IMG/VR virus record: IMGVR_UViG_3300028025_002672
Location: 1 to 30,128 of that record
From: a virus
DNA: 30,128 nt
Reading direction: 5' to 3' (one strand)
Shown here in pieces: positions 3-5,452 of the stretch. Every line of letters starts with the position of its first letter. The stretch's first letter is position 1. Position numbers and translations under genes: made by a program. The notes beneath the pieces were generated by a model. The model saw only the letters and a program-made list of their open reading frames with translations, was not told the origin of the DNA and searched no databases.

Positions 3-236
3 TCCTACCCTGATACTTGGGCGCAATTACACCGGATACAGGGTCAGTCAGTGGAATGGGCGTGTCAGTACGCCGGCTATGAGATCGTAGCTATCTGTTC
101 CAAGTGTTCCGGTAAGTCCGATCCGCTTGCCATATTCCCGAAGGGACTGTGCCTAGCTTGCTATGAACAGCAACACGACCAAGACACGCCGGCGCAAGAT
201 TACGCCACCATAATGCAAGTGTTCGGGGGTAAGTGA
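3..236 (+). CDS. 5'-truncated small zinc-ribbon-like protein
   Basis: The reading frame is open from the first bases of the window to TGA at 234-236, so the gene probably begins upstream. A GTG at 51 is possible but has no Shine-Dalgarno sequence. The visible part carries two CxxC pairs (CSKC and CLAC) about 16 residues apart, the spacing of a small zinc ribbon. I do not recognise the family. The stop overlaps the next start as TGATG, so the two are probably translationally coupled. Role unknown; it belongs to a block of early accessory phage micro-proteins. Confidence 0.5.
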   Translation, partial: SYPDTWAQLHRIQGQSVEWACQYAGYEIVAICSKCSGKSDPLAIFPKGLCLACYEQQHDQDTPAQDYATIMQVFGGK

Positions 237-373
237 TGACTACCTACCAATTTATAGCTAGTGCCGTATTCGGGTGGCTGTTCCGGATCTGTTGGGTATC
301 TATGAGGCGTATGGTCACAGAGATAGAGGCAGAGCCGGTATGGAAGGATCCAACTGATACGCCATATAACTAA
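236..373 (+). CDS. 45-aa protein with short hydrophobic N-terminus
   Basis: The ATG at 236 overlaps the preceding stop (TGATG), and the 45-codon frame ends in TAA. Residues 5-22 are hydrophobic and aromatic (FIASAVFGWLF), followed by basic residues (RR) and an acidic, polar tail. This suggests a membrane-associated peptide with a short or marginal TM segment. No known family recognised. The tight coupling to the upstream frame is the main reason for calling it a gene. Confidence 0.5.
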   Translation: MTTYQFIASAVFGWLFRICWVSMRRMVTEIEAEPVWKDPTDTPYN

Positions 374-379
374 CTAATC

Positions 380-420
380 GGGTGAATGGCATACAGCTAA
401 GTTCAAGTCTTAGCCACCCA
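380..420 (+). ncRNA. T-arm-like structured RNA element, copy 1
   Basis: GGGTG (380-384) can pair with CACCC (415-419). Inside, GCTAAG (396-401) pairs with CTTAGC (409-414) and closes a 7-nt loop TTCAAGT (402-408) that matches the tRNA T-loop consensus. An 11-nt bulge (385-395) lies on the 5' side only. A second copy with a compensated base pair is at 2073-2112. It resembles a tRNA acceptor/T-arm minihelix without D or anticodon arms, so it is not a complete tRNA. It lies in the leader of the gene at 470. Function unknown. Confidence 0.6.
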
Positions 421-425
421 CTACG

Positions 426-439
426 CCGGAATAATCCGG
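426..439 (+). other. Small hairpin between RNA element and RBS
   Basis: CCGGA (426-430), loop ATAA, TCCGG (435-439) form a perfect 5-bp hairpin just downstream of the T-arm-like element. It is followed by the extended Shine-Dalgarno CCTAGAAGGGGG (452-463). No T-tract follows, so it is unlikely to be a terminator; it may be part of a structured leader. Confidence 0.35.
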
Positions 440-469
440 ATCGTAAATAGTCCTAGAAGGGGGCAAACA

Positions 470-697
470 ATGACAACAGTAGAGGCATACTTTTCAAGCA
501 TGATCTACACAAGTGGGCATATCCATTTAGTGATGGATCAGACCGGAGAGCAGACAATAGACATTGTGACATTCTGTACAGACGGCTGTCATAAGCAATG
601 GTGCCAAGATACCGGCAACAGCTACGAAGGGTGGTATGGCTGTCAGGAAATGCCTAGTCCGGCTGTATGCGCACAGTGTGGGGACAGTTGGAAATGA
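470..697 (+). CDS. Cys-rich small protein, probable zinc-binding
   Basis: A 75-aa protein starting with ATG at 470, with the strong extended Shine-Dalgarno CCTAGAAGGGGG 6 nt upstream. The N-terminal half looks like a short beta-rich domain. Cysteines then appear as C-x3-C-x4-C (residues 36-45), a further Cys near 58, and a C-terminal VCAQCG pair, suggesting one or two zinc sites. I do not recognise the family. Its stop overlaps the next start as ATGA. Its leader holds the T-arm-like RNA element, so translation may be regulated there. Confidence 0.7.
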   Translation: MTTVEAYFSSMIYTSGHIHLVMDQTGEQTIDIVTFCTDGCHKQWCQDTGNSYEGWYGCQEMPSPAVCAQCGDSWK

Positions 698-837
698 TTA
701 GGGAAGAATTAGACAGCTACCTTTACAGGCTAGAGGCAGATCTAGAAATAGAGGTGGATCTACACGGCGGGCGTACCGTACTGGCTAGGGATCTTCGGAC
801 ACTGATTATCTCCGCTAGGAAAGAGCTTGACCAATAG
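694..837 (+). CDS. 47-aa charged, probably helical protein
   Basis: ATG at 694 overlaps the TGA of the previous gene (ATGA). The 47 residues are mostly Glu, Leu and Arg with heptad-like spacing, predicting two amphipathic helices around a His-Gly-Gly turn near residues 24-26. No family recognised. Its last codons overlap the -35 box of the promoter at 827-855, so a new transcription unit begins where this gene ends. Confidence 0.55.
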   Translation: MIREELDSYLYRLEADLEIEVDLHGGRTVLARDLRTLIISARKELDQ

Positions 838-855
838 TTGAAACTGTACTACGGT
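827..855 (+). promoter_or_regulatory. Early promoter TTGACC-N17-TACGGT
   Basis: TTGACC at 827-832, a 17-bp spacer, and TACGGT at 850-855. The spacing is ideal for a vegetative sigma factor, and the -10 matches the actinobacterial TANNNT form. A very similar pair lies at 1788-1816 and on the minus strand at 9814-9786. The predicted start, near 862, falls on the 5' base of the hairpin at 862-883. Confidence 0.55.
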
Positions 856-861
856 ACAGTA

Positions 862-898
862 TGTGGGGGTTGATCTACCCACACTGATGATACAGATC
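862..898 (+). ncRNA. Candidate H-type pseudoknot at mRNA 5' end
   Basis: TGTGGG (862-867) pairs with CCCACA (878-883) around a 10-nt loop. Within that loop GATCT (872-876) is complementary to AGATC (894-898), which lies immediately before the Shine-Dalgarno CCTAGAAGGGG at 901-911. Stem plus loop-tail pairing gives a compact H-type pseudoknot between the predicted transcription start and the RBS of the gene at 919. The topology is like small translational riboswitches, but the L3 segment is not A-rich like preQ1-I and I match no known class. This comes from base complementarity only. Confidence 0.4.
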
Positions 899-918
899 TA
901 CCTAGAAGGGGTAAAACA

Positions 919-1335
919 ATGACAACAATAAAAATAGCAAAGGTGACTGGCGTACTAACAAATAGCTGTACTTGCCAGTCATACAATGAAGATCTAGGGG
1001 ACTTTCAACCGGCACCGGAGTGTTGGGGAGACTGTTGGCGTGATCAGGTTGAAGAATTTGAGATGATCACGAAGGATCTACGGGACTCTAACGAAACTTA
1101 TTGGTGGCGTGTAGATAATCTACGCCTATGGAATGGCGAGGTATCAGGATACTTTCAAGCTAAAAAGATCAGTGATCTAATCGCCGGCATGACAGTAAAA
1201 AGTGAATGGATTATGCGGTACTCGGTATTTGCTGATCGTATTGAATACTCGCTGTCTCACCATGACGCTATGGGTAGCAACAGTGTCCTACGGGGCGTGT
1301 CTGAGGAAGAATACGAAGACAAGGTGAGGTACTAA
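919..1335 (+). CDS. Hypothetical early phage protein (138 aa)
   Basis: ATG at 919 with CCTAGAAGGGG ending 7 nt upstream. The N-terminal third contains CTC near residue 18 and CWGDCW near residue 36, which together could bind a metal. The rest is mixed alpha/beta with aromatic residues (YWWRVDNLRLW). No family recognised. It is the first gene after the promoter at 827-855 and the pseudoknot-like leader, so it is probably an early gene under leader control. The next gene follows after 2 nt. Confidence 0.7.
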   Translation: MTTIKIAKVTGVLTNSCTCQSYNEDLGDFQPAPECWGDCWRDQVEEFEMITKDLRDSNETYWWRVDNLRLWNGEVSGYFQAKKISDLIAGMTVKSEWIMRYSVFADRIEYSLSHHDAMGSNSVLRGVSEEEYEDKVRY

Positions 1336-1337
1336 TC

Positions 1338-1736
1338 ATGTCTAGGTCTTACACTTTTACAGTTGAATGGAAAGATCCGGTGCTAGTTGTCGCCGGTGAC
1401 ATTGACGAAGCTACCGAAAAGGTATATAAGTTGATCTATGAAAAGATTAGTAGCGACATGGATCAGGCGATCACAGTCAAGCTAGGTCATGTCGGTAATT
1501 ACCATGACGATCCGGCAATACTTGGGTATTGGCAGAGTGATGGTGATATGAACTGTAAGAAGTGTTCGCCCGATACTGTTCGCCCGATCACGCTTGACAG
1601 CTACCCTGATGGGTTTACTTGTGATAGTTGTTGGGATCCTATTTTACCGGCAGTGTGTACCCATAACTGGCATGAGGTTGAGGGTCATAGCGGTGGATCT
1701 ATGCAGTGTTCACACTGTGATGCCTATCAGAATTAG
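1338..1736 (+). CDS. Zinc-ribbon protein with C-terminal CTHxW...CxxC tail
   Basis: 132 aa, ATG at 1338 with AAGGTGAGG upstream inside the previous gene. Residues 1-70 look like an alpha/beta fold. The C-terminal half has CKKC and CDSC pairs about 22 residues apart, then CTHNW and CSHC. The last is a common small zinc knuckle at the end of phage proteins. Two zinc sites are therefore likely. No specific function recognised. A promoter-bearing intergenic region of 130 nt follows. Confidence 0.7.
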   Translation: MSRSYTFTVEWKDPVLVVAGDIDEATEKVYKLIYEKISSDMDQAITVKLGHVGNYHDDPAILGYWQSDGDMNCKKCSPDTVRPITLDSYPDGFTCDSCWDPILPAVCTHNWHEVEGHSGGSMQCSHCDAYQN

Positions 1737-1787
1737 TTGTAGTGTGCAAGTTGTTTGAGCCTTGTGGTATAAGGGAAATAATAATAC

Positions 1788-1816
1788 TTGACATTGCACC
1801 TGAATTGTATTACAGT
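1788..1816 (+). promoter_or_regulatory. Early promoter TTGACA-N17-TACAGT
   Basis: Consensus -35 TTGACA at 1788-1793, a 17-bp spacer, and TACAGT at 1811-1816. The predicted start is near 1823, next to a 6-bp hairpin TCAGGC/GCTTGA (1824-1829/1836-1841, one G-U pair). It drives the gene at 1867 and probably the small-gene operon beyond. It is the best match to the three-member promoter set in this window. Confidence 0.65.
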
Positions 1817-1866
1817 TGAGTTATCAGGCAGTACAGCTTGAAGAAAAAAACAAGGGGAAATAAAAA

Positions 1867-2064
1867 ATGGCTACACGAATAGTGAAAGCTAAACCACCAA
1901 TAGCAGAGATAATTCTTTACCGTGAGAACAGTGACGAAGTTCTCCATGTGTTCAAGATATGGGAACAAGAAGTTCTTGACTTCTACTATGCCAAACTTGC
2001 ACCTCACACTAACTACAACGGGCAACGAGTTGGGCGTAATGAAGTAAGAGAAATACAGTCTTAG
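1867..2064 (+). CDS. Small basic hypothetical protein (65 aa)
   Basis: ATG at 1867 with AAGGGG 9 nt upstream in an A-rich leader. The sequence has a basic start, a central beta-rich stretch (AEIILYRENSDEVLHVFKIW) and a polar C-terminus, and could be a compact alpha/beta domain. No family recognised. It is the first gene downstream of the strong promoter at 1788-1816, which suggests early and high expression. The minus-strand frame across it has no RBS or context and is not a gene. Confidence 0.6.
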   Translation: MATRIVKAKPPIAEIILYRENSDEVLHVFKIWEQEVLDFYYAKLAPHTNYNGQRVGRNEVREIQS

Positions 2065-2072
2065 ATAAGACA

Positions 2073-2112
2073 GGGTGATAGCAGACAGCTAGGTGCAAGT
2101 CCTAGCCACCCA
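2073..2112 (+). ncRNA. T-arm-like structured RNA element, copy 2
   Basis: GGGTG (2073-2077) pairs with CACCC (2107-2111). GCTAGG (2088-2093) pairs with CCTAGC (2101-2106) around the 7-nt loop TGCAAGT (2094-2100). The 10-nt 5' bulge (2078-2087) resembles the copy-1 bulge: both contain GCA and end in ACA. Relative to copy 1, an A-T pair has become G-C, a compensatory change that supports a selected RNA. The 3' end reads ACCA like a tRNA tail, but there is no room for D and anticodon arms. It lies in the leader of the gene at 2164. Confidence 0.6.
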
Positions 2113-2163
2113 CCATGCGAAGCAAGTGCCGAGCAGTAGGTAATCCTAGAAGGGGATCACAAA

Positions 2164-2427
2164 TTGAAAACAATAGATATACCTAAGAGCGTTGAGCTGT
2201 TCGGAAAGTCATGGGCGTTACTGTTCAGCTTGACTAACCCGAAGTGGCACCACGCAGACCAAGAGCATGACGAGTGGAACTCTCACGCCGGTTACGACCT
2301 GAACTTGTACGCAGGTGACGGGCGACTCACTGTGACTGTGTACCCACTGGTTGATGATGGTACGGGCTTTATGACTACCGACACCTCAACATATAAAACA
2401 ATTGTCAAGAAAGAAAAGAAGGGCTAG
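2164..2427 (+). CDS. Hypothetical protein (87 aa), TTG start
   Basis: The TTG at 2164 is chosen because CCTAGAAGGGG ends 8 nt upstream, the same extended Shine-Dalgarno as at 470 and 919. The 87 residues include a His/Trp-rich segment (WHHADQEHDEWNSH) and a beta-rich second half ending in a Lys-rich tail. No family recognised. A non-ATG start behind a strong RBS and a structured leader is consistent with tuned translation. The next gene starts 2 nt after the stop. Confidence 0.6.
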   Translation: MKTIDIPKSVELFGKSWALLFSLTNPKWHHADQEHDEWNSHAGYDLNLYAGDGRLTVTVYPLVDDGTGFMTTDTSTYKTIVKKEKKG

Positions 2428-3739: not shown

Positions 3740-3781
3740 GGCTCCGGCTCGTGTCCCCCTTCTCACGAGTCGGAGCCTTTT
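3740..3781 (+). terminator. Strong intrinsic terminator between convergent operons
   Basis: A 14-bp stem, GGCTCCGGCTCGTG (3740-3753) with CACGAGTCGGAGCC (3764-3777) and one G-U pair, has a 10-nt loop and is followed by TTTT on the plus strand. It ends the early plus-strand block. On the minus strand no T-run follows, but the hairpin overlaps the 3' end of the convergent WhiB gene and could partly stop that transcript too. Confidence 0.85.
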
Positions 3782-4049
3782 ACCGTTTCCAGCTGATGCT
3801 GGTTGGCTGTCTAACGTGTTGATCTCGTTGTTTGGGGGTCATGCCAGCCCAAAACCCGTCACGTCTGCCGGTAGCAGACTCAAACGGTAAACAGAAGGCT
3901 AGGCATTGGGTTATGACCGGACAGTTAGAGCAGTAGTTCCTTGCCGGTTGCCAATAGAAGTCACGGACATCACCGTTAGGTATCTCCGGAAAAAAGATAG
4001 CTGATGGTGCGCCTTTGCAGTTAGCTTTGTCGTGCCATTCGTCTTTCAT
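3780..4049 (-). CDS. WhiB-like iron-sulphur transcription regulator
   Basis: 89 aa with the WhiB cysteine pattern: C11, then C40-x2-C43-x5-C49, the four ligands of a 4Fe-4S cluster. A tryptophan turn follows (GFWAGMT, residues 65-71), replacing the usual G-[VI]-W-G-G. The C-terminus is basic (KQRDQHVRQ, ISWKR), as in WhiB proteins that contact DNA beside the sigma factor. Wbl proteins are restricted to Actinobacteria and their phages; in mycobacteriophage TM4 a WhiB affects septation and superinfection. It is last in the minus-strand operon, overlapping the upstream stop as ATGA. An extra Cys at 53 is present. Confidence 0.88.
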   Translation of the reverse strand: MKDEWHDKANCKGAPSAIFFPEIPNGDVRDFYWQPARNYCSNCPVITQCLAFCLPFESATGRRDGFWAGMTPKQRDQHVRQPTSISWKR

Positions 4050-5121: not shown

Positions 5122-5452
5122 ATGCGTGTCCCCTGGGGCAGTGTGTTTTGTTGGCGTAGAAATGTCTGCCTCTGTCCACTACGTCTTTCATGTTTTCTGT
5201 TTGGGTTCCACCTTCTAGGTGGTGAGGGTTGACGCAGATTCGGTTGTCGCATTTATGTCTGACGACTGGGGGATAGTAGTAGTTAGCTAGGAAGAATGAG
5301 AACCGGTGGGCTGCTCGGTGTTTGCCTTGTGCGTATAACTGTCCGTAGCTGTCGCCTCGTAGTGAGCCTTGCCATTCCCAACATTCTTCGGGGGTTAGGA
5401 TGTTTACTCGTTTCCAAAAGCGTTGGCTTGTTCGGTATGTAACTGTATCCAC
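5033..5452 (-). CDS. HNH endonuclease with C-terminal zinc ribbon
   Basis: 139 aa. Residues 10-45 have the CWEWQG...YGQLYAQGKHRAAHRFSF pattern, followed by VRHKCDNRICVNPHHLEGGTQTEN, the HNH_3-type core with catalytic His and ββα-metal residues. The end (CPRGHAY...RECRACR) is a zinc ribbon typical of these free-standing homing-type enzymes. Start GTG at 5452 follows GGGGGGAACCT. It overlaps the downstream zinc-ribbon gene by 89 nt. A related enzyme sits at 18796-19218. Likely a mobile endonuclease rather than a core phage gene. Confidence 0.88.
   Translation of the reverse strand: MDTVTYRTSQRFWKRVNILTPEECWEWQGSLRGDSYGQLYAQGKHRAAHRFSFFLANYYYPPVVRHKCDNRICVNPHHLEGGTQTENMKDVVDRGRHFYANKTHCPRGHAYDEANTYNKPNGSRECRACRKARKNLDTA

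Follow-up and report, generated by a model that had tools for sequence, protein, structure and literature searches.

The window examined here is the whole of a 30,128-base virus record (IMGVR_UViG_3300028025_002672), which carries among its small early genes two short RNA elements that fold like the acceptor and T-arm half of a tRNA and are called mini-tRNAs in the following. Each lies in the gap between two small genes (Table 1), and since they start 6 and 8 nucleotides (nt) past the stops at 373 and 2064, respectively, the window elements are intercistronic and not simple leaders. The element represents a real, widespread and previously unnamed RNA family. Its most probable role, to which we assign a probability of about 0.6, is that of a minimal tRNA mimic serving as a processing mark for ribonuclease P (RNase P) in early mRNA.

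Table 1. Features in and around the two mini-tRNA elements of the window.
Feature	Position	Strand	Basis	Description
Gene 5' of element 1	233–373	+		46 aa
Candidate RNase P cut, element 1	between 379 and 380		sequence	predicted
Mini-tRNA element 1	380–421	+	sequence; fold; covariance models
Outer stem, element 1	380–384 with 415–419			GGGTG with CACCC
Bulge, element 1	385–395			D-loop-like, AATGGCATACA
T-stem, element 1	396–401 with 409–414			GCTAAG with CTTAGC
T-loop, element 1	402–408			TTCAAGT
Helix end, element 1	420, 421			A420 is purine-73, C421 is C-74
P2 hairpin adjoining the 3' side of element 1	422–445	+	fold
Shine-Dalgarno within a small hairpin, leader of gene 470–697	450–464	+	fold; repeated motif
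Gene 3' of element 1	470–697	+		75 aa, Cys/His-rich
Gene 5' of element 2	1867–2064	+		65 aa
Candidate RNase P cut, element 2	between 2072 and 2073		sequence	predicted
Mini-tRNA element 2	2073–2115	+	sequence; fold; covariance models
Outer stem, element 2	2073–2077 with 2107–2111			GGGTG with CACCC
Bulge, element 2	2078–2087			ATAGCAGACA, 10 nt
T-stem, element 2	2088–2093 with 2101–2106			GCTAGG with CCTAGC
T-loop, element 2	2094–2100			TGCAAGT
Tail, element 2	2112–2115			ACCA
Weak predicted P2 hairpin 3' of element 2	2112–2141	+	fold
Shine-Dalgarno within a small hairpin, leader of gene 2164–2427	2143–2157	+	fold; motif
Gene 3' of element 2	2164–2427	+		87 aa, TTG start

Both copies are more stable than dinucleotide shuffles of themselves (fold z of -2.28 for element 1 and -2.35 for element 2). 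An earlier note, made from the letters of the window alone, had described the two hairpins and their common architecture, and sequence and fold bear it out; the compensatory change of an inner A-T pair to G-C, which it saw between the copies, is real in the sequence. The extended Shine-Dalgarno CCTAGAAGGGG, said to follow both, indeed stands 3' of each element, at 452 and 2145, with a third and last occurrence in the window at 901. The placement "in early leaders" is to be corrected, since the elements are intercistronic. Likewise, the one-sided bulge is present, but it is not passive: as detailed below, it is a D-loop-like strand that touches the T-loop.

Comparison of the window's first 8 kb with phage records at the DNA level returned a single match, an 80-nt stretch at 5183–5267 that is about 76–78% identical to HNH endonuclease or hypothetical genes of enterobacterial phages, and homologues were therefore sought by protein and by pattern. 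A search with a RecE-like exonuclease yielded 64 related contigs, to which sequence patterns added more. In 12 homologues chosen by sequence pattern, with pairing not required, all 11 pairs are kept (132 of 132 cells) and 5 of the 11 show two-sided changes; when the partner strand is slid by 1–3 columns, pairing falls to 40–53%. The covariance model R1 added further copies, including second copies in loci L013 and L014 and four in the record of Mycobacterium phage Konstantine. Many more covarying homologues than the original two thus exist; their absence would have refuted the earlier note. The window elements score 63.6 bits (element 1) and 71.4 bits (element 2) with R1, and reach E-values of 3.8e-12 and 3.2e-9, respectively, with the model R2.

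Among cultured phages, BLAST with the consensus finds matches in Mycobacterium, Streptomyces and Gordonia phages. Scanning whole records with R2 gives 5 copies in Konstantine, 8 in Joe, 12 in Papyrus, 6 in Predator, 7 in Lika, 10 in Caliburn, 7 in Lorelei and 1 in Katyusha, and all copies of one record lie on a single strand. A descriptor that asks for the T-loop, 11–12 paired positions and a one-sided bulge retrieves 230 distinct copies from 2.06 Mb of fetched loci and 1 from the same loci after dinucleotide shuffling, a count that speaks for specificity and not for abundance, because the loci were chosen as carriers or relatives of carriers. Besides phages of the three genera, the carriers comprise metagenomic phages, an integrated element, Corynebacterium plasmids, in which one copy lies before repA, and a few contigs of Bacteroidota (single copies in two contigs) and Gemmatimonadota (several copies in one contig). 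Copies in chromosomes are few, with 5 of 198 and 1 of 198 genomes in searches at class and phylum level (seed genomes included); both figures are lower bounds, because 32 candidates were scored per genome.

That no known family came to mind for the earlier note agrees with Rfam, which gives no family above the gathering cut-off in the window or in L138, L142, L137, L225 and L144; below threshold, there are chance-level matches only (E 0.9 and 2.5), and these fall outside the element. Searches of the open-access literature found no prior account of tRNA-like elements, tRNA punctuation or such repeats in these phages. Several copies deserve mention in their own right. In the integrated element of L225 (Actinocatenispora rupis contig C29, 5500–11500), a mini-tRNA stands between nearly all of the tiny genes. 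The element of the Corynebacterium plasmids L231 and L232, irregular at one base, lies about 150 nt ahead of repA. Possible far-diverged members, with a similar outer stem, an ACTA tail and a downstream hairpin but an altered T-loop, are seen in L041 (9304–9352) and L051 (12502–12550).

How closely the element imitates a tRNA becomes apparent from the contacts between its bulge and its loop. For these, the 40-nt core is numbered with the outer stem at 1–5/36–40, the bulge at 6–16, the T-stem at 17–22/30–35 and the T-loop at 23–29. By mutual information over 145 unique cores, which amount to an effective number of 44, contacts 7-13, 14-29 and 9-24 rank among the stem pairs, and 15-28 is weaker. 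The first is C-G in 97 cores, G-C in 23 and A-U in 21; 14-29 is A-U (108), G-C (15) or C-G (7); 9-24 is G-U in 127 and A-G in 17; 15-28 is C-G in 127 and G-C in 3; and 10-25 is G-C in every core. None of these five contacts is demanded by the descriptor. In a set of 46 diverse sequences, 95.7% of the cells of 7-13, 14-29 and 15-28 taken together pair, and their covariation amounts to 0.633, compared with 0.146 after shuffling and at most 0.052 after sliding. A pseudoknot between the bulge and the 3' flank (GCA with TGC) was also considered; it is plausible in the first copies and fails in L013, L070 and L090.

Contacts 9-24 and 10-25 are the counterparts of G18-U55 and G19-C56 of tRNA, with a pairing geometry that is presumed from the sequences. 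At the former, G18-U55 is exchanged for A18-G55 as a unit (Fisher p 3e-21, a guide value since the sequences are related). The T-loop reads TTCRANY or TGCRANY in most copies. Both elbow classes occur within single genomes, namely in L160, L172, L180 and the window, where copy 1 is of the G18/U55 class (GG with TTC) and copy 2 of the A18/G55 class (AG with TGC). The pair G22-C30 is present in 145 of 145 cores, where it is fixed by the descriptor, and in copies from other patterns as well, so that the element has the T-arm of a tRNA, with G53-C61 and, in the T-loop, U54, R57 and A58. D stem and anticodon arm are absent, with a bulge of 10–11 nt in their place, and where L011, L021, L096 and L103 carry an inserted hairpin, it sits between positions 10 and 12, the very place of the D stem and anticodon arm in a tRNA. 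Because of the elbow contacts and this insertion site, the element can be regarded as a tRNA reduced to its elbow and acceptor end. The shape assigned by the earlier note, an acceptor/T-arm minihelix lacking D and anticodon arms, is upheld by the covariation of the homologues. Longer variants of the element are found in L011 (17008–17071), L021 (9374–9439), L096, L103 and L142 (8191–8244).

The way in which copies were collected shapes some of these statistics. The descriptor itself fixes stem pairing and the T, C and A of the loop, so that stem covariation in the resulting alignment, A4, is biased because pairing was demanded. Two early pattern scans fix the CAC tail, and another does so for the bulge and position 29. 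Copies in which the respective positions were not fixed are the source of the variants at 14-29 (G-C, C-G, U-A) and of the A-G class at 9-24, and one pattern scan left positions 9 and 24 free. The stem test on 12 homologues, the contact test on 46 sequences and the class swap at 9-24 are free of the kind of bias that affects A4.

The end of the helix is similarly tRNA-like. A purine at the position of residue 73 and C-74 follow directly after the helix in 224 of 225 copies, for helices of 11 and 12 pairs alike, and the first base of the core is G in 134 of 145. The residue 5' of it avoids pairing with residue 73: U-1 faces A73 in 7 of 203 copies, as opposed to 19% expected (p 3e-11), and neither C nor U at -1 faces G73 in any of 21 copies.

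In their position, too, the copies are highly uniform. The element starts 0–20 nt past the upstream stop in 172 of 203 copies, most often at 6–8 nt, and most copies are separated by 33–56 nt from the start codon that follows. For the 40 nt 3' of these 203 elements, the fold is better than that of mononucleotide shuffles (mean z -1.6), and the P2 hairpin that is weak 3' of element 2 is more distinct in homologues, e.g., in L014 (ACACC gaag GGTGT). In seven annotated cultured phages, a copy is present in 54 of the 70 early gaps that measure 55 nt or more; the early regions of the same phages contain 57 copies on the coding strand and 0 on the other, 2 of the 57 outside annotated gaps. In well-studied Mycobacterium and Streptomyces phages, many gaps of about 90 nt between small early genes, for which present annotations show nothing, are accounted for by the element.

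Bacterial RNase P cuts synthetic hairpins of acceptor stem, T-stem and T-loop at the normal site, and its P15 loop pairs with the 3' RCC of the substrate (PMC11143913); pairing between residues -1 and 73 influences the cut (PMC12710915). By its sequence, the element keeps the features that are read by bacterial RNase P and has lost what translation needs. In the proposed mechanism, the transcript would fold into an acceptor/T-arm helix of 11 base pairs (bp), sometimes 12, and the D-loop-like strand that replaces D stem and anticodon arm would hold the T-loop, thereby recreating the tRNA elbow. Host RNase P might then bind this elbow, with R73-C74 pairing to the P15 loop of the enzyme, and cleave the polycistronic early mRNA immediately 5' of G1, which would separate the upstream from the downstream cistrons and leave the downstream mRNA with a folded, tRNA-like 5' end carrying a 5' monophosphate. 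The cut may serve to balance or stabilize early mRNAs, the proposed benefit being that early messages are separate and have a protected tRNA-like 5' end. With the fold, the elbow contacts, the conserved helix end, the avoidance of -1/73 pairing, the intercistronic position on the coding strand and the spread established from the sequences, recognition and cleavage of the element by RNase P is what we infer. A processing mark is the best explanation because the features read by RNase P are kept and because the element is placed between cistrons. The tRNA mimicry proposed in the earlier note therewith stands, and the "cis-regulatory" role it had in mind is narrowed to a probable RNase P processing site. 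What it underestimated is that the bulge rebuilds the D-loop side of the elbow, that purine-73 and C-74 are conserved at the helix end, and that the early genes of many phages are generally marked off by the element.

Several observations weigh against a processing mark. The two bases after R73-C74 vary, i.e., C75 and A76 are not conserved and the full CCA is not kept; the stacked helix has 11 bp in most copies and 12 bp in a minority, whereas that of tRNA has 12; and the contacts 14-29 and 15-28 have no counterpart in tRNA. R2 finds no copy in phiC31, itself a Streptomyces phage whose early region has small genes. In L030, L033, L031 and the second copy of L014, the element lies about 10 nt past a promoter-like sequence, so that a cut would remove almost nothing, and in L108 and L114 it stands ahead of one. 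Moreover, at least four mini-tRNAs follow each other in tandem, about 110 nt apart, in one gap of L157 (6600–7110, minus strand), which plain punctuation would not need. The tandem copies are divided by GGCATGGC-like repeats.

The main rival, in itself unlikely, is an element that stays uncut. It could act as a folded 5' shield or roadblock that withstands RNase J, RNase E or 3' exonucleases, or else bind a host factor, ribosomal or tRNA-binding, through which translation of the following gene is tuned. This would fit the fairly constant spacing to the next start codon, the linked P2 and Shine-Dalgarno hairpins, the promoter-like sequences just 5' of some copies and the position before repA in Corynebacterium plasmids, but it leaves unexplained why R73-C74 is nearly invariant, why -1/73 pairing is avoided and why the element starts 6–8 nt past the previous stop. 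Alternatively, the mini-tRNA of about 41 nt could be excised and work in trans, e.g., as a decoy that draws in tRNA-binding enzymes of the host or defences directed at tRNA. This idea is kept in play by the tandem run in L157, and the many copies per genome and the complete mimicry of elbow and acceptor agree with it; however, nearly all copies are single, lie between genes and have a linked start codon, and a conserved 3' cut signal was not identified, which makes excision for a function in trans quite improbable. A combination, in which mini-tRNAs, as a natural class unknown until now, cut the operons of phages, integrated elements and plasmids via RNase P and the released RNAs of about 41 nt also act in trans, e.g., as such decoys, we regard as doubtful.

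A hairpin a few nt past a stop codon, sometimes with a promoter-like sequence after it, might also suggest a transcription terminator or a put-like RNA antitermination element. Yet the hairpin is followed by no U-run, its tail being A-C and then variable; elbow contacts and R73-C74 would serve no purpose in an intrinsic terminator, and copies near transcript 5' ends would halt transcription at once, so a role of this kind has a slim chance of being correct. A site that acts at the DNA level, such as a tRNA-like attP, a repressor stoperator, or a recombination or homing site, could draw on the likeness to a tRNA T-arm, on contigs that share a downstream module yet differ upstream (L070, L073) and on the intergenic stoperators reported for phage R4 and its relatives (PMC10276819). 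It is disfavoured, and very improbable in our view, because compensatory changes in stems and elbow demand pairing of RNA; in addition, the element is always on the coding strand, with several copies per genome. Hardly credible, finally, is the decay of ordinary phage tRNA genes, to which the T-loop consensus and R73-C74 might point: related phages contain no intact tRNA genes, compensatory pairing is intact in more than 200 copies, and some contacts are foreign to tRNA. ARAGORN makes 0 tRNA calls in the window and about 50 related loci, bar one tRNA-Ala in a bacterial contig, and ordinary tRNA genes or their remnants, which the earlier note had named as an origin of the copies that would refute its reading, were rejected since none is found in the window and the related phage loci.

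If the elements are indeed RNase P processing marks, bacterial viruses and mobile DNA would possess a tRNA-punctuation system. Punctuation of mitochondrial transcripts by tRNAs was reportedly described by Ojala in 1981. In plant mitochondria, t-elements are tRNA-like structures that mark cleavage sites of polycistronic RNA (PMC8003010). These two systems appear closest in action, as in both a tRNA or tRNA-like structure lies between cistrons and marks a cleavage site of polycistronic RNA; they use full or near-full tRNA shapes in organelles, whereas the element described here has 41 nt, resides in phages and plasmids, and is a candidate for cleavage. In structure, it is close to the synthetic model substrates of RNase P, the acceptor-stem, T-stem and T-loop hairpins of McClain and Altman (PMC11143913), with which it shares the minimal tRNA half, R73-C74 beside the predicted cut and an unpaired -1. 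In contrast to these, it is natural and repeated, and a conserved strand resembling a D-loop docks on its T-loop; if cut, it would be the natural counterpart of the synthetic minimal substrate. Known RNase P targets also include the C4 antisense RNA of P1/P7, M3 RNA and T4 gene 32 mRNA (PMC11143913), which are single cases of phage RNA cut by host RNase P, while the mini-tRNAs are a repeated intergenic family with a predicted cut.

The mini-tRNAs are an unnamed family of putative tRNA-like processing signals with a predicted cut. Plant-virus tRNA-like structures and the tRNA-like domain of tmRNA also mimic the elbow and acceptor of tRNA, but these do not lie between cistrons of phage mRNA, and the phage element has no Rfam match. 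The element lends itself to studies of how the elbow of a tRNA is read by RNase P, for which the replacement of a G-U by an A-G elbow contact, found together with the G-U class in a single genome, is a sharp test. It is possibly also a compact, portable element with which synthetic operons could be split.

Other repeats of related phages appear to be distinct. The SAS and ESAS motifs of cluster K mycobacteriophages such as TM4, the ESAS being a 17-bp inverted repeat (PMC3203893), are likewise repeated structures 5' of early starts, with a Shine-Dalgarno between short inverted sequences. However, their motif is GGGATAGGAGCCC with 17-bp inverted repeats upstream, the TM4 sites show long inverted repeats, and TM4, checked as a possible carrier of the element, gives no descriptor match and no significant R2 match. 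Repeats reported in the Gordonia phages CaiB and Vardy and in Microbacterium phages appear different as well, judged by the published text. The Shine-Dalgarno hairpins of the window (450–464, 899–913 and 2143–2157) have the layout flank-CC [TA]GAAG GG-flank; their flanks show paired variation among relatives and resemble the SAS motifs of phages in clusters K and EF. The third leader with CCTAGAAGGGG (about 838–918) contains other hairpins (ACTGTAC/GTACAGT and GTGGG/CCCAC) in place of a mini-tRNA. Further downstream, a small gene on the minus strand (3780–4049) encodes a product with a WhiB-like cysteine pattern, which, together with relatives found in actinobacterial phages, makes an actinobacterial host likely.

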